Assembly (NCBI RefSeq): GCF_027912515.1
Contig: NZ_CP115464.1
Span: 868,001-932,000, forward strand
Origin: Brevundimonas sp. NIBR10
Lineage (GTDB): Bacteria; Pseudomonadota; Alphaproteobacteria; Caulobacterales; Caulobacteraceae
Direction of reading: 5' to 3'
Length of the DNA stretch: 64,000 bases
Shown here: piece after piece, positions 47,955-57,067 of the stretch
Position numbering within the stretch: the first letter of the stretch is position 1
How the letters are laid out: each line of letters begins with the position of its first letter
The notes under the pieces: model-generated
The model's input: the letters and a program-made list of their open reading frames with translations, nothing else
The model's database searches: none
What the model was told of the DNA's origin: nothing
Program-made: the position numbers and the translations under genes

Positions 47955-48589
47955 TCAGGTTGCGTCTTTGGCTGGTTGTGCCCGCCGGGCCAACACGTCG
48001 AGAACGTCCTGAAACGACATGTGACGCGCCCGTAACAGAACCAGCAAGTGGTAGATCAGGTCCGCGCCCTCGCTGGCCAGTTCTTCGTCGGGCCCGGCGA
48101 CCCCGGCCAGGGCCGTCTCGACGCCTTCTTCCCCGACCTTCTGGGCCAGGCGTTTGGGTCCTTCAGCGATCAGGCGGGCGGTGTAGCTGACGGACGGGTC
48201 CTGCGCCGCGCGTTCGACGATGGTGCGTTCAAGCGCCGCGATCCGACCCACGCCGGGAGCCTCGTCGTTCCCGAAACAGCTGGTCGTCCCCAGATGACAG
48301 GCCGGCCCCATCGGCCGCACGCCCAGGACCAGGGCGTCGCCGTCGCAGTCGGGGGTGATCGACACCACCGTCTGCCGGTTGCCGCTCGTTTCGCCCTTGC
48401 GCCACCGCCCTCCACGCGAGCGGGAATAGAAGGTGGCCTCGCCGGATGAAATCGTCTCCTCCAGCGCGGCGCGGTCCATATAGGCTAGCGTCAGCACTTG
48501 AAGTGTATCGGCGTCCTGCACGATGGCCGGGATCAGGCCGTCGCCCTTGGCGAAGTCGAGGGTGTCGGGATCGAGTGTCATTGGAACAG

Positions 48590-48593
<4 letters not shown>
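47955..48593 (-). CDS. hisIE: Bifunctional HisI-HisE: phosphoribosyl-AMP cyclohydrolase / phosphoribosyl-ATP pyrophosphatase
   Basis: A 212-residue fusion catalysing steps 2 and 3 of histidine synthesis. The HisI part (about 1-115) has [44 protein letters not shown] and the zinc cysteines in [10 protein letters not shown]. The HisE part (about 120-212) has [13 protein letters not shown] and LIYHLLVLL. In many alphaproteobacteria these are two genes. The GTG at 48593 overlaps the hisF stop and has GGAGG seven bases before; an ATG four codons on is the alternative. Confidence 0.93.
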
Positions 48594-49353
<760 letters not shown>

Positions 49354-49357
<4 letters not shown>

Positions 49358-50088
49358 CGGGTGGCCTCGATGGCCTGACCGGCAGTGAACCGGCCCTCGT
49401 AGATGGCGCGGCCGACGATGGCCCCGTCGCAACCGATGGCGGCGGCGGCCGTCAGGTCGTCCAGCGACGACACCCCGCCCGATGCCTGTATCTTCAGGTC
49501 GGGCCTGCGCCGCCGCGCCTCGCCCAGCAGGTCGAGGTTGGGACCGGTCAGGGCGCCGTCGCGACCCACGTCGGTGATCAGGACGTGACTCAGCGTCCCG
49601 GCGGGATAGCGGTCCAGCGCGCTCCACAGGTCGAACCCGGCTGCCTCGGTCCAGCCCTTGAGCGACGGCGTCGGAACTCCGTCCTCGCCGACGCGGACAT
49701 CGAAGGCCAGCGTCAGCCGCTCGGGTCCGAACCGCGCCAGCCAGGCCGCGACCTCATCCGGCTTCGTCACCGCCAGCGATCCGACGACGACGCGCGTGAC
49801 ACCGGCGTCCACCAGCCGCTCGACATCCTCGGCCGTGCGCACCCCGCCGCCCGACTGGATCGAGGCCGTCGTCCCGGCGGCCAGCTTGCCGATCAGTTCA
49901 TGCTGCACGGCTTTGCCCGCCTTGGCCCCGTCCAGATCGACGATGTGCACCCAGGTCGCGCCCTCGGCCACGAAACCGGCCAGCCGGTCGGCGGGATTGT
50001 CGTCGTACTGCGTCACCTGATCGAACCGGCCGTGCATCAGCCGGACGCAGACGCCCTCCCTCAGGTCGATGGCGGGATAGATGATCAT
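49354..50088 (-). CDS. hisA: ProFAR isomerase
   Basis: A 244-residue barrel isomerising the ring-opened sugar in histidine synthesis. [19 protein letters not shown] carries the catalytic Asp, [17 protein letters not shown] and [13 protein letters not shown] the phosphate sites, and [12 protein letters not shown] the second catalytic region. It overlaps hisH and hisF by four bases at its two ends. Confidence 0.96.
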
Positions 50089-50681
50089 GTCAGGCTCAGG
50101 AAATTCTTCAGGATACGCGCGCCGGTCGCCGCCGAACGCTCTGGGTGAAACTGGCAGCCCCAGCGATTGCCCGAGCGGACCACGGCAGGGACATCGGTCC
50201 CATAGTCGGCGCAGGCGATCGTCGCGTCGCTGTCGGGACAGACGAAACTATGGACGAAATAGGCATAGTCGCCGTCGTTGACCCCCTCCAGCAGCGGGTC
50301 GGGCTGACCCCGGTCCAGCTGGGTCCAGCCCATGTGCGGCACGGTCAGGTCCGGCCGGACGTTCAGCCGGGTCACGGTTCCGGGGATGAAGCCGAGCAGA
50401 TCGACGCCGTTGCCTTCCTCGCTGCGCTCGAACAGCAGTTGCTGGCCGAGGCAGACGCCCAGCAGCGGCCGCTCGAACGACCGGATCGGGTCGATCAGGC
50501 CCAGTTCGGCCAGCCGCGCCATCGCATAGCCCGCCGCGCCGACGCCGGGCAGGATGACCTTGTCGGCCGAGGCGACAACTTCAGGGTCCGAGGTGATGAC
50601 GGCCTCGCACCCCAGCCGCTCCAGCGCGAACTGCACCGAGGCGGTGTTGCCGGCCCCGTATCCGATGATGGCGACGGTCAC
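50085..50681 (-). CDS. hisH: Imidazole glycerol phosphate synthase, glutamine amidotransferase subunit
   Basis: A 198-residue class I amidotransferase supplying ammonia to HisF. The nucleophile is in LLGVCLGQQLLFERSEEGN, and the His-Glu pair in CQFHPERSAATGARIL. VAIIGYGAGNTASVQFAL is the family N-terminus. It starts with GTG at 50681, overlapping the hisC'B stop (GTGA), and its stop overlaps the hisA start. Confidence 0.95.
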   Translation of the reverse strand: MTVAIIGYGAGNTASVQFALERLGCEAVITSDPEVVASADKVILPGVGAAGYAMARLAELGLIDPIRSFERPLLGVCLGQQLLFERSEEGNGVDLLGFIPGTVTRLNVRPDLTVPHMGWTQLDRGQPDPLLEGVNDGDYAYFVHSFVCPDSDATIACADYGTDVPAVVRSGNRWGCQFHPERSAATGARILKNFLSLT

Positions 50682-52102
50682 AGGACACCCTTTGTCGATG
50701 GAACGGCGTCGCCTTCGATGCGGATGGCCTGTCTCAGGGCGCGGCCGAAGGCCTTGTAGACGGCCTCGGTCTTGTGGTGGTCGTCGTCGCCGGTGACCTT
50801 GACGTGGATCGCGGCGCCCATAGCCTCGGCCAGCGAGCGGAACACATGGGCGGTCAGGTCGGTACGGTATTCGCCGATCATGGGGGTCGAGAAGCTTCCC
50901 TCGAACAGTGGATAGGGACGGCCCGACAGGTCGATGGCGATATGGGCCTCGGCCTCGTCCATGGCCAGGACGAAGCCGTAGCGGGCGATGCCGCGCCGCT
51001 CGCCCAGCGCCTGTTTCAGGGCCTGGCCCAGGGCGATGGCGCTGTCCTCGATGGTGTGGTGGGCGTCGGTGTGCAGGTCGCCTTCGCAGGCCAGCCGGAT
51101 CGAGAAGCCGCCGTGGGCCGCGACCTGTTCTAGCATGTGATCGAAGAAGCCGACGCCGGTGTGGATGGCGACGGGACCGGGGCTGTCCAGATCGACGGCG
51201 CAGACGATCCGCGTCTCCTTCGTATCTCTCACGGCCTGGCCGAGACGGGCCGGGCGACTGCGCGGCGGGGTCAGGCCCAGCGCCAGCAACAGCCGGTCGT
51301 TGACCTCGGGCTTCAGCGAGATCGGCAGGCGCAGCCGGTCGCCGGAGCGGTCGGCGGCCACGCCGTATTTCGCAAACTCGGCCAGCAGGGCTTCCGGATC
51401 GGTGGGCCGGGCCATCAGGATGGGGCCGACGCCGGTCTCGACCGTCATCAGCCGTGACACTTCGCGGGCGATGCGGGCGCGCTCGCGCTTGACGCCTGTG
51501 ATCCGTTCGGCGGTCTCGATCATCCGCGACGGGTCGAGCGCCTGTTGCGCCAGTCGGACCAGCGGTTCGGGCAGGGCATAGGGCTCGAGCATGGCCGACA
51601 GCCGGGCCAGGGTTGTCGCCTGGGCGAGCGCGGCACCGACGCGGGCACCGGCCAGCCCATAGGCCAGGGACAGGCTGCGCAGGACTACGAGGTTGGCGTG
51701 GGCGTCGAGGATGGTGGCGGCCGACGCCGTGTCGGCGAACTCGATCAGGCCTTCGTCCACGACTAGCAGAGCCGGGGCGACGCGGGCGGCCATCTCTGCG
51801 ACCGCCTCGGGCGAGCCGAGGGCGCGGATGACGACCGCAGCGGTGTCGCCCTTGCGGCCATAGATGGCGTCGAGGCGGGTATAGGGTTCGGCGTCGGGGG
51901 CCTGAACACTCTGGTTCGCTTGCGCGGCCAGACGCCAGACCAGTTCCAGCCCGTGGGTCAGGCCCCGGATCGGCAGCACCTGCTCGGGGGGCACGCGGTA
52001 AATCTGGGCCATGCGCGCGGCCAGCGCCGACGGATCGGCCGGATAGCGGTCGAGGCCGTCGCCGCCTGCGACCAACGGGGGATAGGGAGCGGGCAGGGTC
52101 AT
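50678..52102 (-). CDS. hisB: Fusion of HisC-like pseudo-aminotransferase and HisB (IGP dehydratase)
   Basis: A 474-residue protein in two parts. Residues 285-474 are a complete imidazoleglycerol-phosphate dehydratase with GVGFFDHMLEQVAAHGG, TDAHHTIED and DDDHHKTEAVYKAFGRAL, keeping the manganese histidines. Residues 1-280 follow a histidinol-phosphate aminotransferase: RYPADPSALAARMAQ, VLPIRGLTHGLELVWRLAAQ, VVDEGLIEF and LRSLSLAYGLAGARVG. The PLP-binding lysine of the usual LSKAYGLAG motif is leucine (L146, codon 51665-51667), DEAY has become DEGL, and the NNPTG segment is missing. The N-terminal half therefore cannot be a normal PLP enzyme. Overlaps with hisD and hisH show it sits in the operon. 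Confidence 0.88.
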   Translation of the reverse strand: MTLPAPYPPLVAGGDGLDRYPADPSALAARMAQIYRVPPEQVLPIRGLTHGLELVWRLAAQANQSVQAPDAEPYTRLDAIYGRKGDTAAVVIRALGSPEAVAEMAARVAPALLVVDEGLIEFADTASAATILDAHANLVVLRSLSLAYGLAGARVGAALAQATTLARLSAMLEPYALPEPLVRLAQQALDPSRMIETAERITGVKRERARIAREVSRLMTVETGVGPILMARPTDPEALLAEFAKYGVAADRSGDRLRLPISLKPEVNDRLLLALGLTPPRSRPARLGQAVRDTKETRIVCAVDLDSPGPVAIHTGVGFFDHMLEQVAAHGGFSIRLACEGDLHTDAHHTIEDSAIALGQALKQALGERRGIARYGFVLAMDEAEAHIAIDLSGRPYPLFEGSFSTPMIGEYRTDLTAHVFRSLAEAMGAAIHVKVTGDDDHHKTEAVYKAFGRALRQAIRIEGDAVPSTKGVL

Positions 52103-53421
52103 ACCGCGCTCCTCAGATCCGCCGCCCGCGCGTGGGCTTCCAGGCCTTCCAGCCGCGCCAGTCGGGCCGCCACGGGGGCCAGCACCGCCGCGCCCGCTTC
52201 CGTCACCGTCTGGACCGACATGGTGGTCATGAAGCTCGACGTCGTGATCCCGCCCAGAGTCCGGGCCCCGCCGTCGGTGGGCAGGACGTGGCTGGGGCCC
52301 GCCGCGTAGTCCCCCAGGGTCTCGGCCGCGAAACGGCCGACGAAGACGGCGCCTGCGGCGGTGATGGAGGCGACTAGGGCCTCGGCGTCCTCCGTCTGGA
52401 TGGCTAGGTGTTCCGGTCCGTACAGGTTGGTCACTTCACAGGCGGTCGCCGTATCGCTCACCTTGATGATCCGGGCTTCCGCGAGCGAGGCGCGCGCGAT
52501 CTCGGCGCGGGGCAGGGTCTCGAGCTGCTCCTCGACGGCTTCGAGGATGGCGTTGATCGTCGCGGTCGAGTCGCAGACCAGGATGACCTGAGCGTCGGCG
52601 TCGTGTTCGGCCTGGCTGAGCAGGTCGGCGGCGGCGATCTCGGGATCGGCCGACCCGTCGGCGATGACCAGCAGTTCCGACGGTCCCGCCGGCATGTCGA
52701 CCGACGGACCGCCGGGCAGGGACGAGGCATATTTCTTGGCCTCGGCGACATAGGCGTTGCCGGGTCCGAACAGCTTGTCGCAGGCCACGATCTCGCCGTC
52801 GTCGAAGGTCGCGCCGAAGGTCATGGCCGCAATCGCCTGGGCCCCGCCGACAAGCCACAGGGCGTCCAGCTCGGCCTCGGCGGCGGCGATGATCATCGCC
52901 GGGTGGACCCCGCCGTCCTTCGACGGAGGCGTGACCGCCACTCGCTGGCGCACCCCCGCGACCTGAGCCGGGATGGCCAGCATCAGCAGGGACGAGAACA
53001 ACGGCGCCGAACCGCCGGGCACATAGAGGCCCGCCGCGCCGATGGGGCGCCAGACCAGTTTCGAGCGCACGCCCGGTGTGGTCTCGACGAACGCGGTGTC
53101 CTCGGGCCGGGTCGCCTGGTGGAAGACGCGGACATTCTCGGCGGCGATGCGGATGCAGCGCGTGTCGGCGGGCGGCAGGGCGTCGCGCGCGGCCGCCACG
53201 ACATCCGGCGTGATCGCGATGCGCCGGGGCGGGGCCTTGTCGAGCTTGATCGCCCAGTCGGCGACGGCGGCGCCGCCCCTTGTCTGGACGTCGTCGAAGA
53301 TCTCCCGGACCACGTCGGTGACGCGGCCCTCCGTTCTCTGGCGCGGGCGAGCGAGAGCGGCCTTGCGCCCGGCGGCATCTAGCGACGCCCAGTCAATGCG
53401 TTTGAAGGCGGTCGTGGCCAT
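52099..53421 (-). CDS. hisD: Histidinol dehydrogenase
   Basis: A 440-residue zinc enzyme performing the last two oxidations to histidine. VPGGSAPLFSSLLMLAIPAQ, DKLFGPGNAYVAEAKKYAS, DMPAGPSELLVIADGSADPE, AEHDADAQVIL and NLYGPEHLAIQTEDAE are family motifs with the zinc and catalytic His/Glu residues. The ATG at 53421 shares one base with the hisG stop; a GTG one codon upstream (53424) is the alternative start. Confidence 0.96.
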   Translation of the reverse strand: MATTAFKRIDWASLDAAGRKAALARPRQRTEGRVTDVVREIFDDVQTRGGAAVADWAIKLDKAPPRRIAITPDVVAAARDALPPADTRCIRIAAENVRVFHQATRPEDTAFVETTPGVRSKLVWRPIGAAGLYVPGGSAPLFSSLLMLAIPAQVAGVRQRVAVTPPSKDGGVHPAMIIAAAEAELDALWLVGGAQAIAAMTFGATFDDGEIVACDKLFGPGNAYVAEAKKYASSLPGGPSVDMPAGPSELLVIADGSADPEIAAADLLSQAEHDADAQVILVCDSTATINAILEAVEEQLETLPRAEIARASLAEARIIKVSDTATACEVTNLYGPEHLAIQTEDAEALVASITAAGAVFVGRFAAETLGDYAAGPSHVLPTDGGARTLGGITTSSFMTTMSVQTVTEAGAAVLAPVAARLARLEGLEAHARAADLRSAV

Positions 53422-54302
53422 CACATCATCTTCTCGATCGGCAGCACCAGGATAGCGGAGGCTCCGGCCGCCTTGAGCTTCTCCAGCGTCTCCCAGAACA
53501 CCGCTTCCTGGCAGACGGCGTGGACGGCGACGGCGTCGTCGCGGCCCATCAACGGCATGACTGTCGGCGCGCCGGCGCCGGGCAGGATGGCGGTGATCGC
53601 GTCGAGGGCCGAACGTGGGGCGTTCAGCATCACATATTTGGCCCCCTGCGAGGACACCACGCCCGCCATCCGCTCGACGATCGAATCCAGCAGGTGTTGC
53701 AGGGCGGGCTCCGGCGGGGTCGGAGACTTGATCAGGACGGCCTGGCTTTGCAGCACCGTCTCCTTGGCGATCAGGCCGTTGGCCTCCAGCGTCGCGCCCG
53801 TCGAGACCAGGTCACAGATCGCGGCGGCGAGCTTCAGCCTCGGCGCCACCTCGACGGCACCACGCATGGTCACGATCTCGGCCCCGATGCCCTGGTCGTC
53901 CAGATAGCGTTGCAGGATCTTGGGATAGGAGGTCGCGATCCGCAGTCCGGCCAGCGAGCGCGGGCCCGCATAGGTCATGGTCGGCGGCACCGCGAGCTTC
54001 AGCGTGCAGCGGCCGAAGCCCAGCGGCATGACGACCTCGGCATGGCTGCCGCCGTTCTTGTCCTCCTCCAGCACGTTCTCGCCGACGATGCCGAGATCAC
54101 AGACGCCGTCGGCGACAAACGTGGGAATGTCGTCGTCGCGGACCCGCAGCAGGTCGATCGGATAGTTCTCGACCTTGTACAGCAGGTCGTTGGCGCCTTT
54201 GACCCACTTGAGACCCGCGTCGCGGATCAGGTCGAGGCTGCGTTCGGACAGGCGGCCGGATTTCTGGATGGCGATGCGAAGTCGCCCCTGGACGGTACTC
54301 AT
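53421..54302 (-). CDS. hisG: ATP phosphoribosyltransferase
   Basis: A 293-residue enzyme catalysing the first, committed step of histidine synthesis. LRIAIQKSGRLSERSLDLIR, DDIPTFVADGVCDLGIVGEN and ICDLVSTGATLEANGL are catalytic-core motifs. Length and the C-terminal domain (from about residue 215) fit the long form that carries its own histidine-feedback domain. It is the first his gene, starting 8 bases after the stop of the YerC-type regulator. Confidence 0.95.
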   Translation of the reverse strand: MSTVQGRLRIAIQKSGRLSERSLDLIRDAGLKWVKGANDLLYKVENYPIDLLRVRDDDIPTFVADGVCDLGIVGENVLEEDKNGGSHAEVVMPLGFGRCTLKLAVPPTMTYAGPRSLAGLRIATSYPKILQRYLDDQGIGAEIVTMRGAVEVAPRLKLAAAICDLVSTGATLEANGLIAKETVLQSQAVLIKSPTPPEPALQHLLDSIVERMAGVVSSQGAKYVMLNAPRSALDAITAILPGAGAPTVMPLMGRDDAVAVHAVCQEAVFWETLEKLKAAGASAILVLPIEKMM

Positions 54303-54309
54303 GGAAATG

Positions 54310-54642
54310 TCAGGCTTTCGAGTTCAGACGATCGAGCACCAGGCGATAACCCTGATGCGGCATCTCTTTCAGGAACCGCGCGACGCGCACGACGGTGGTG
54401 GGGCTGGCCCCGGCCTCCAGCGCGATCTCGCGATAGGATTTGCAGTTCTGCGCCAGCAGCCGGGCGACGGCCCAGCGTTCGGCGAAGGCGCGGACCTCGG
54501 ACGGGGTGCAGAGGTCGGCCAGGAAGGCATCGACCTCGTCGCGCGTCTTCAGCGACAACAGGGCGTCGAACAGCGCCGCCCGATCGGCATCCGCCGATCG
54601 TGAGGCCTTGTCGGGGGCCGGGTTGGGAAGGGCATCGGTCAT
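54310..54642 (-). CDS. YerC/YecD-type TrpR-like regulator
   Basis: A 110-residue DNA-binding protein of the TrpR superfamily: ALFDALLSLKTRDEVDAFLA, DLCTPSEVRAFAERWAVARL and KSYREIALEAGASPTTVVRV, the last being the helix-turn-helix. The ATG at 54642 was chosen; an extension to 54822 lacks homology-like sequence and crosses the argD start. It lies 8 bases upstream of hisG on the same strand, so it is probably the first gene of the his transcript and a candidate histidine regulator. An inverted repeat covers the region just before its start. Confidence 0.85.
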   Translation of the reverse strand: MTDALPNPAPDKASRSADADRAALFDALLSLKTRDEVDAFLADLCTPSEVRAFAERWAVARLLAQNCKSYREIALEAGASPTTVVRVARFLKEMPHQGYRLVLDRLNSKA

Positions 54643-54648
54643 TGCGGG

Positions 54649-54676
54649 CGTTCCACTATGCTGTAACACTGGAACG
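54649..54676. promoter_or_regulatory. Inverted repeat upstream of the YerC-his operon
   Basis: CGTTCCA (54649-54655) and TGGAACG (54670-54676) are exact reverse complements 14 bases apart. The site begins 6 bases before the YerC-type ATG and lies in the 165-base gap to argD. It is a candidate operator for self-regulation of the his operon. Confidence 0.5.
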
Positions 54677-54807
54677 GTCAAGGCGTTTCGATGTCGCGAT
54701 TCGGAGCCGTGAGTTGACTCACCTCGTCTCGCGTCCGACAACGTCGCTTTAGGAAAGTCCCGCCGCGCCCGCGTCGGGGCTTCATTGCTTTTGGAGGTAC
54801 AGGTCCC

Positions 54808-56007
54808 GTGTCCACAAGCCATCTGATGGGTGTCTACAATCGCGCGCCGCTGGAAGTGGATCGCGGGCGAGGCATGCGTCTGTGGTCGGTGGACGGCACG
54901 GAATACCTAGACTGCGTTTCCGGCATCTCGACCAACGCTCTGGGTCACGCCAATCCGATCCTGGTCCAGGCGGTCAAGGACCAGGCCGAGAAGCTGTGGC
55001 ATGTGTCCAACATCTTCCGGATTCCGGACCAGGAAAAGCTGGCCGACATGCTGTGCGAGCATTCGTTCGCAGATGCCGTCTTTTTCACCAACTCGGGCAC
55101 CGAGGCGGTCGAGTGCGCGATCAAGACCGCGCGCAAATACCACCACCACGCCGGTGCGCCTGAGCGGATCGACATCTACGGCTTCGACGGATCCTTTCAC
55201 GGCCGTACCTATGGCGCGATCAACGCGGCGGCCAACCCCAGCTATACCAACGGCTTCGGTCCGCCGATGGAGGGCTTCCACCAGCTGACCTGGGGCGACC
55301 ACGAGGCGCTGAAGGCCGCCATCGCCGCCCCGACGACCGCCGCCATCATCGTCGAGCCGGTCCAGGGCGAGGGCGGTTGCCGCGCCATGCCGGACGTCTG
55401 CCTGCGCGGCCTGCGCGAGCTCTGCGACCAGCACGGCGTGCTCATCATCTTCGACGAGGTCCAGTGCGGCATGGGCCGGACCGGCAAGCTCTGGGCCCAC
55501 GAATGGGCCGGGATGGAGCCCGATATCATGGCCATCGCCAAGGCCCTGGGCGGCGGCTTCCCCATCGGGGCCTGCCTGGCGTCGGAGAAGGCAGCGTCGG
55601 GCATGACGGTCGGAGCCCACGGCTCGACCTTCGGCGGCAATCCCCTGGCCATGGCGGTTGGCGTTGCGGCCTTCGGCGAACTGGTGAAGCCCGCGCTGAT
55701 CCAGAACGTCAACGAGATCGCCGGCTACCTGAAGCAGCAGCTGCACGGGCTGAAGGAACGGTTTCCCGACGTGATCGCCGATGTGCGCGGCAAGGGTTTG
55801 CTGATCGGGGTCAAGCTGATCCCCAACAACCGTGACTTCATGGCCCTCGCGCGCGATGAACAGCATCTGCTGATCGCCGGCGGCGGCGACAATTGCTGCC
55901 GCATCCTGCCGCCGCTGAACATCACGCTCGATGAGGCGCGCGAGGCCATCGAGAAGTTCGAGGGTGCCTGCGAGGTGGCCCGAGCGCAGATGAAGGCGGC
56001 GGCGTAA
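54808..56007 (+). CDS. argD: Acetylornithine aminotransferase
   Basis: A 399-residue class III PLP aminotransferase making N-acetylornithine. FFTNSGTEAVECAIKTARKY, FDGSFHGRTYGAI, VEPVQGEGGCRAMP, IIFDEVQCGMGRTGKLWAHE and AIAKALGGGFPIGACLA (PLP lysine) are all present. Translation starts at GTG (54808) after TTTTGGAGG. It is followed by argF, from which it is separated by an inverted repeat. Confidence 0.93.
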   Translation: MSTSHLMGVYNRAPLEVDRGRGMRLWSVDGTEYLDCVSGISTNALGHANPILVQAVKDQAEKLWHVSNIFRIPDQEKLADMLCEHSFADAVFFTNSGTEAVECAIKTARKYHHHAGAPERIDIYGFDGSFHGRTYGAINAAANPSYTNGFGPPMEGFHQLTWGDHEALKAAIAAPTTAAIIVEPVQGEGGCRAMPDVCLRGLRELCDQHGVLIIFDEVQCGMGRTGKLWAHEWAGMEPDIMAIAKALGGGFPIGACLASEKAASGMTVGAHGSTFGGNPLAMAVGVAAFGELVKPALIQNVNEIAGYLKQQLHGLKERFPDVIADVRGKGLLIGVKLIPNNRDFMALARDEQHLLIAGGGDNCCRILPPLNITLDEAREAIEKFEGACEVARAQMKAAA

Positions 56008-56018
56008 GTTCACCACCT

Positions 56019-56147
56019 CCGCTCATCCCGGCGAAAGCCGGGACCCAGTGTTTTGGGCGATCGGAGTTCAATATCCACCACGGCTGCTCATCCCAGCCGC
56101 TCTGCCACACTTAAGAACTGGGTCCCGGCTTTCGCCGGGATGAGCGG
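56019..56147. repeat. 31-bp inverted REP-like repeat between argD and argF
   Basis: The segment 56019-56049 (core CATCCCGGCGAAAGCCGGGA) and the segment 56117-56147 are exact reverse complements over 31 bases, 67 bases apart. Each arm itself contains a CCCGGC...GCCGGG hairpin, typical of dispersed REP elements. A degenerate single copy lies at about 57970-57999 (GCTCATCCCGACAAAGGCCG). Confidence 0.8.
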
Positions 56148-56152
56148 AAATC

Positions 56153-57067
56153 ATGGTCAGACACTTCCTCGACATCCACCGTCTCTCCGCAGAAGACCTG
56201 CGCGCGATCCTCGACGACGCCCATGCCCGCAAGGCCGCCCGCAAGGGCTGGCCCAAGGGTCGCGCCGATGCCGACGCACCGGCCAGGGACCGCGTCCTGG
56301 CCATGATCTTCGAGAAGAACTCGACCCGCACCCGGTTCAGCTTCGACGCCGCCATCCGCCAACTCGGCGGATCGTCGATCATCGCCACCGCCTCGGACAT
56401 GCAACTGGGTCGCGGCGAGCCGGTCGAGGACACCGCCAAGGTCCTGTCGCGCATGGTCGATGCCGTCATGATCCGCGCCAATTCCCATGAGGACGTCGAA
56501 CGGTTCGCCCGCGTCTCGACCGTGCCCGTCATCAACGGCCTCACCGACCGATCACACCCGTGCCAGATCCTGGCCGACATCATGACCATCGAAGAGGCCA
56601 AGGGTCCGATCTCGGGCAAGACCATCGCCTGGGTCGGGGACGGCAACAATGTCTGCCATTCCTTCATGCATGCGGCGCCCAAGCTGGGCTTCCACTTCAA
56701 CGTCGCCTGCCCCGCCGAGTATCACCCCGACCTCCACGACCTGGCCAGGGGCGGCAACGCCGTCACCCTGACGTCCGATCCGAACGAGGCGGTGCTGGGC
56801 GCCGACGTCGTGGTCACCGACACCTGGGTGTCGATGGGCGACAGCGACTATGAGCAGCGCCTGCATGCCTTCGAGACCTATGGCGTCGACGAGGCCCTGA
56901 TGAACAAGGCCGATCCCGCCGCCGTCTTCCTGCACTGCCTGCCGGCCCACCGTGGCGAGGAGGTCACCGACGCGGTCATCGACGGACCGCGCTCGCTGGT
57001 CTGGGACGAGGCAGAGAACCGCATCCACGCTCAGAAGGCGGTTCTGGCCTGGTGCTTCGCCGGCTGA
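56153..57067 (+). CDS. argF: Ornithine carbamoyltransferase
   Basis: A 304-residue enzyme making citrulline from ornithine and carbamoyl phosphate. The carbamoyl-phosphate loop is [12 protein letters not shown], followed by [23 protein letters not shown] (ornithine side) and [13 protein letters not shown]. The N-terminus [20 protein letters not shown] is standard. The start lies 5 bases past the right arm of the REP-like repeat. Confidence 0.96.

Follow-up and report, generated by a model that had tools for sequence, protein, structure and literature searches.

The histidine biosynthesis operon of Brevundimonas sp. NIBR10 contains a fused gene whose product, judged from its sequence, is a HisB preceded by a HisC domain lacking the residues that a PLP transaminase needs. 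The lost catalytic residues, together with the purifying selection that still acts on it, class this N-terminal domain as a pseudoenzyme, an idea put forward in an earlier, sequence-only reading of the same DNA. Comparison with relatives and predicted structures favours, with a probability of about 55%, the dead domain being a non-catalytic N-terminal partner that HisB would need for its folding, assembly or expression. The window analyzed here is a stretch of 64,000 nucleotides, and the positions in Table 1 are given in its coordinates.

Gene structure and operon context

The sequence-only reading had described the gene as a HisC'-HisB fusion, and profile matches agree, with HisC-like residues 1-277 followed by HisB at residues 292-474. 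In a Pfam scan, PF00155 matched residues 99-271 and the IGPD family PF00475 matched residues 315-456, with 189.8 bits against a cut-off of 27; no phosphatase family was present among the three Pfam matches with E <= 1. The HisC model TIGR01141 matched the whole fusion protein with an E value of 3.3e-26 and 92 bits, its best stretch being residues 99-222, and the fused domain falls far short of the NCBIfam HisC threshold of 276.55. Only positions 166-355 of model NF003937 were matched (268 bits, against a cut-off of 443). The HisB half is intact, as had been claimed: the IGPD domain is above its cut-off and both HHxxE motifs (HHTIE and DHHKTE, which we take to be the HisB metal-site motifs) are present. 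HisB enzymes in general are IGP dehydratases that form a 24-mer.

Table 1. Positions of the fused gene, its parts and the other his genes in the window
Feature	Coordinates	Strand	Remark
HisC'-HisB fusion gene, 474 aa	50678..52102	-	ATG start; one of 45 full-length copies read in the genus
Dead HisC-like domain, residues 1-277	51272..52102	-	
Linker, residues 278-291, without conserved internal start	51230..51271	-	
HisB (IGP dehydratase) domain, residues 292-474, stop codon included	50678..51229	-	
Leu146 (CTG), site of the PLP lysine (E. coli Lys214)	51665..51667	-	
Former lysine loop, residues 137-160, most constrained part of the domain	51623..51694	-	dN/dS
DEGL (116-119), formerly DEAY; Tyr lost, Asp kept	51746..51757	-	
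Residues 64-111, about 30 aa shorter than in intact fusions, NPTG lost	51770..51913	-	Alignment, count by eye
HHTIE, HisB motif, residues 348-352	51047..51061	-	
DHHKTE, HisB motif, residues 441-446	50765..50782	-	
hisG, long form with C-terminal domain	53421..54302	-	TIGR00070 and TIGR03455
hisD	52099..53424	-	TIGR00069, 442 bits
hisH	50085..50681	-	TIGR01855
hisA	49354..50088	-	TIGR00007
hisF	48590..49366	-	TIGR00735
hisIE fusion	47955..48593	-	NF002747, 245 bits, above cut-off

The operon is compact and resembles that of gammaproteobacteria, and its gene order in the window is hisG-hisD-hisC'B-hisH-hisA-hisF-hisIE, with zwf and pgl downstream of the operon. The fused gene overlaps hisD (ATGA) and hisH (GTGA), in line with the earlier description of a domain held in frame inside an overlapping operon, to which purifying selection can now be added. 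Directly upstream of hisG lies a YerC/YecD-type gene related to TrpR (54310-54822, minus strand; TIGR02531, 66 bits), a possible regulator of the operon; HisR is described in passages of PMC9413887 as a regulator of histidine metabolism. On the opposite strand, an acetylornithine transaminase gene (PRK01278) begins beside the operon and is followed by an ornithine carbamoyltransferase-like gene, recognized by eye, both within 54808-57067 (plus strand). The window has no tRNA and no Rfam match above the gathering score.

Loss of catalytic residues

Full-length homologs of the fusion are found throughout Brevundimonas. Leu146 occupies the alignment column of Lys214 in E. coli HisC (1fg3), which upholds, now genus-wide, the assignment of this CTG codon to the PLP lysine: the column is Leu in all 45 full-length Brevundimonas copies read and in the single g19 copy, and Tyr (7) or Phe (11) in the 18 Asticcacaulis copies read. 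A second set of 80 named loci, with many genomes in common with the first (45 + 18 + 1), gave Leu in 60 and Met in one of 61 Brevundimonas-type copies, Phe in nine and Tyr in five of 14 from Asticcacaulis, and Lys in 5/5 intact fusions. The one Met belongs to L165, from a Brevundimonas MAG. The change of DEAY to DEGL and the absence of NNPTG noted earlier were also recovered, the DEAY Tyr being present in 0/45 Brevundimonas copies and the NPTG column being an alignment gap in 45/45.

A sequencing or assembly error has next to no probability as the source of the missing lysine, since lysine is absent from every one of the 45, or of the overlapping 61, Brevundimonas-type copies, named isolates included, and the CTG of Leu146 is two base changes away from a Lys codon.

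Other parts of the old active site persist. Asp116, of the DEAY motif, and Ser145, which precedes the lysine position, are conserved in 45/45 Brevundimonas and 18/18 Asticcacaulis copies, and Arg154, of the GLRxG motif, in 45/45 and 17/18. Tyr is found at Tyr20 (the E. coli Tyr55 column) in 43/45 Brevundimonas copies and Arg at Arg258 (presumably E. coli Arg335) in 44/45; neither occurs in any of the 18 from Asticcacaulis, and the g19 copy has no equivalents of Arg154 and Tyr20. We take these five columns to be PLP or phosphate contacts of HisC. The pocket might accordingly bind PLP, histidinol phosphate or the HisB product non-covalently and so regulate or feed HisB, and besides the near-invariant contacts in Brevundimonas, the former lysine loop is the most conserved part of the domain. 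The contacts missing from Asticcacaulis and g19, and the remnants in family f4 (see below), which lack most of the pocket domain, argue that ligand binding is not the common reason for retention. A ligand-sensing or hand-off role fits Brevundimonas, and neither Asticcacaulis nor f4, and we regard it as improbable.

Selection, predicted fold and translation

The substitution rates indicate that the dead domain is under purifying selection. For Brevundimonas, the domain without the lysine loop has a dN/dS of 0.286 (0.227-0.332), and HisB one of 0.113. The loop itself, at 0.119, is about equal to HisB, and the 24-codon stretch beginning two codons earlier (135-158) gives 0.118 (0.061-0.183), 22 disjoint pairs being used for each stretch. 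The corresponding values in Asticcacaulis are 0.193 for the domain, 0.072 for the loop and 0.064 for HisB. By this measure the constraint on the domain, which has also become shorter, is two to three times weaker than that on HisB. In structure predictions both dead versions take on the HisC fold, which places the N-terminal domain with the fold type I aminotransferases, although the AlphaFold alignments contain five intact fusions each and these may pull the models toward the HisC fold.

We found no general way for HisB to be translated apart from the N-terminal half. The commonest in-frame start-like codon near the boundary is GTG at residue 291, in 29/45 copies. In the 44 copies for which the codon before the HisB core was counted (one of the 45 rows was missed by the pattern), it is GTG in 29, GTC in 11, ATC in three and GTT in one, with a Shine-Dalgarno-like stretch in only three. 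An internal start that frees HisB was rejected as a general feature on these counts. The GTG share at codon 291 (window 51230-51232, minus strand), 29 of 41 Val codons against 34% of Val codons, has a naive p of 3e-6 that ignores kinship, and kinship could be the source of the excess.

The same facts agree with a more modest account, in which HisB merely has no start and ribosome site of its own and the N-terminal half is translated but idle, selected only against misfolding. Such a passive leader would be consistent with the four-base overlaps on both sides, the lack of a conserved internal start, the shrinkage of the domain in several lineages and its replacement by HisD in f4. It does not account well for a fold predicted to be kept across some 277 residues, for the HisB-like constraint on the former active-site loop (dN/dS 0.12), which is more than a bare leader needs, or for the approximately 284-316 residues that still lie ahead of HisB in the tree rows from Brevundimonas and Asticcacaulis. 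Overall, we consider the passive leader rather unlikely, and keep a partner required by HisB as the preferred reading.

Separate HisC and the rest of the pathway

The genome containing the window is a single contig with a completeness of 99.99%. Outside the fusion it encodes one HisC above the cut-off (G000:C1:694038-695087, 290 bits), as had been anticipated from the state of the fused domain, and one IMPase-type HisN above the cut-off (297 bits). The pathway can therefore be complete without the fused HisC. Relatives have a separate HisC as well: one above the cut-off was identified in all 44 dead-fusion genomes tested in the family of the window (23 Brevundimonas, one g19 and 20 Asticcacaulis, the lysine column having been read in 17 of these 20), and in three of the seven intact-fusion genomes of that comparison. 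A separate HisC was always present where the fused copy is dead and a separate copy was sought. This full-scoring HisC in 44/44 genomes, and the joint loss of the lysine, the NPTG Asn and the DEAY Tyr, make it very improbable that the domain retains transaminase activity or some other, lysine-independent activity, despite the strong conservation of the pocket loop.

The separate HisC probably serves another pathway too, because G140 and G015, two Brevundimonas genomes with a stated completeness of 100%, contain a HisC above the cut-off with no HisB or HisD match; they are perhaps natural histidine auxotrophs. Two further genomes, G189 and G023, have HisD and no HisB match. The HisC relative HisHb is described, in parts of PMC1173090, as serving widely as an aromatic aminotransferase, the hisHb-tyrA pair being found throughout the alphaproteobacteria. 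Directly downstream of the separate hisC of the window genome there is no tyrA-like gene of at least 90 codons, which goes against this hisC being part of the usual aromatic pair. In g19 (G068:C6:66636-71642), a full-scoring HisC lies approximately 2.7 kb downstream of the dead fusion, which has 414 aa as trimmed, and another is on contig C19.

Intact fusions and origin of the fused HisB

Intact HisC-HisB fusions were identified in order-mates, Peiella sedimenti (G148, which has the same genus code as the window), Sphingomonas parva, Blastomonas marina and metagenome genomes. The lysine is kept in all 54 alphaproteobacterial intact fusions aligned, and also in the eight gammaproteobacterial HisC sequences aligned. 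Among 385 alphaproteobacterial genomes searched at E <= 1e-70, a threshold that would miss eroded fusions, 12 match: three Brevundimonas, eight with full-length fusions and one with a fragment. A search of 398 Pseudomonadota at E <= 1e-65 matched 55, with fusions in G040 and six Brevundimonas; in G856 the match spans the whole query and crosses stops, and the other 47 have only separate HisC or HisB matches among the matches listed. The dead domain is homologous to the HisC of these intact fusions and descends from such a fusion.

In HisB trees the fused HisBs group with gammaproteobacterial HisNB and apart from the free HisB of alphaproteobacterial type, with support from 100/98 to 100/100, the long-branch fusion i_L178 being unplaced in the first tree (100/98) and excluded from the later two (100/100). 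Both groups also lack five residues of free HisB, in three places. Trees and shared gaps assign the fused HisB to the gammaproteobacterial HisNB type. In the eight gammaproteobacterial genomes read, HisC and HisB are separate ORFs and HisB starts at least about 180 residues into its own, a lead that, judged by ORF position, is the expected place of HisN. In the fusions, HisC seems to occupy the former position of HisN.

HisB of this type was not seen alone. In family f4 it was preceded by another part in the best match (183 residues) of all 72 genomes that have it. In 274 gammaproteobacterial genomes, all 17 high-scoring HisB matches lie in frames of 354-419 codons and so count as not free, a rule that depends on open-frame length rather than on a domain test and on a score threshold chosen after the gap was seen. 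The other 108 gammaproteobacterial matches are mostly in short frames, and for the majority of them the matched span is longer, at 188 codons.

Within the family of the window (Brevundimonas, Asticcacaulis), the lysine was lost once or twice. The dead copies are united in the full-length tree (100/99) and not in the tree based on HisB only, and a single clade of them is not rejected by the AU test (p 0.241).

A second loss in family f4

The order-mate family f4 contains intact, eroded and replaced versions of the domain. HisNB-type HisB is present in 72 of its 79 genomes, of which 40 have intact fusions, 23 have stubs in front of HisB, eight have HisD-HisB and one is cut by a contig end. The stubs have approximately 190-220 residues, counted from putative start codons, and lack the lysine motif. 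A single open frame joins HisD to HisB in L223, L224, L233, L235, L237, L239, L243 and L244, and these HisD parts score 293-379 bits against HisD of the window. The profile of the 23 stubs matches the C-terminal portion of HisC, the one adjoining HisB, with a score of 56, against 17.5 at most in 60 column shuffles. The match of a single-sequence stub is weak, at 7.9 bits against the all-HisC profile (best of 200 shuffles, 5.5), and with the gammaproteobacterial profile it does not rise above the best shuffles.

The separate HisC follows the state of the fused one in f4 as well, being present in 31/31 genomes with an eroded or replaced domain and in 9/40 with an intact one (Fisher p 2.5e-12, too small a value because the genomes are related). 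Of the 19 stub or HisD rows included in the HisB tree, 18 group together in one clade (100/98), separate from the dead copies in the family of the window; the intact Peiella fusion falls among the latter (97/90). This separation implies at least two losses of HisC and disfavours a single erosion event for all dead copies. One f4 genome, G969, has an intact HisC-HisB fusion (G969:C10:2388-4979) and, on another contig, a separate HisC near a distant HisB (41% identity); perhaps it carries two his systems.

Role of the dead domain

The comparative data suggest the following course. HisC would have taken the place of HisN in front of HisB, and the fused HisC could then die because the separate HisC covers its step. 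The dead domain would be kept because HisB of this lineage needs an N-terminal partner to fold, to assemble or to be made. It may now serve as a folded scaffold with no catalytic role, the collapsed active-site loop having become structural core, and the product of HisB would be handled by the separate HisC.

Of the roles proposed in the sequence-only reading (structural, regulatory or substrate-sensing), the comparison favours a part in structure or assembly, since the erosion in f4 removed most of the pocket-bearing domain and kept the portion adjoining HisB. Three points weigh against the scaffold. The domain is shrunken and less constrained than HisB, a HisB that has no start site of its own explains a constant N-terminal part equally well, and in 8/72 f4 genomes HisD stands in the place of the domain, which makes this particular domain replaceable. 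A wider hypothesis, which we offer tentatively and hold to be possible rather than probable, is that an N-terminal partner is obligate for HisB of the HisNB lineage, yet interchangeable: HisN in gammaproteobacteria, HisC in certain alphaproteobacteria, a dead or eroded HisC once a second HisC had taken over, and HisD after the loss of HisC. The Brevundimonas domain would then be a captured assembly factor.

Comparison with known systems and significance

Histidine biosynthesis is a classic model of gene fusion. In passages of Fani et al. 2007 (PMC1963479), HisNB is described as having arisen in gammaproteobacteria and having been passed on horizontally together with the operon, one alphaproteobacterium included. 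The five his fusions treated there are hisA/F, hisIE, hisHF, hisNB and hisIED, and neither HisC-HisB nor HisD-HisB is among them; likewise, hisC is not one of the seven fused his genes in the corresponding portion of a 2023 review (PMC10138114). We found no report of a HisC-HisB fusion in the open-licence literature searched, which does not prove its absence. The present fusion and HisNB share the HisB subtype, as seen in the trees and the five missing residues, and the operon order hisGDC[B]HAF[IE] (compare the passages of PMC1963479), and in both the N-terminal domain is drawn from the same pathway. They differ in that the partner here is a dead HisC and not the phosphatase HisN, which is a separate gene of the IMPase family. 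Compared with the known HisC enzymes (E. coli 1fg3/1gex, K. pneumoniae 7szp), the fused domain lacks the PLP lysine, NPTG and the DEAY Tyr, is shortened and is joined to HisB.

Dead enzymes are also retained elsewhere in this pathway. HisZ is described in parts of PMC10795190 as an inactive paralog of histidyl-tRNA synthetase that regulates HisG. It resembles the fused domain as a dead enzyme kept in histidine biosynthesis as a non-catalytic partner; in contrast, it has another fold, is a separate subunit and has a known allosteric role. Dead proteins of the PLP fold include SPTLC1/LCB1, of serine palmitoyltransferase, and antizyme inhibitor. These too are PLP-fold proteins without the lysine that are kept as partners, but they are paralogous subunits or regulators of their own enzyme, not fused to a pathway neighbor.

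Annotators should not expect HisC activity from the dead fusions. Because live, dead, eroded and replaced versions of the domain exist side by side, the reason for its retention and the dependence of HisB on a partner can be tested. The whole range of states, live fusion, dead domain, stub and HisD replacement, is the more interesting finding. If HisB of this lineage does depend on an interchangeable partner, the passage from live fusion through scaffold and stub to replacement would be a natural record of an enzyme becoming a structural part, at least twice.
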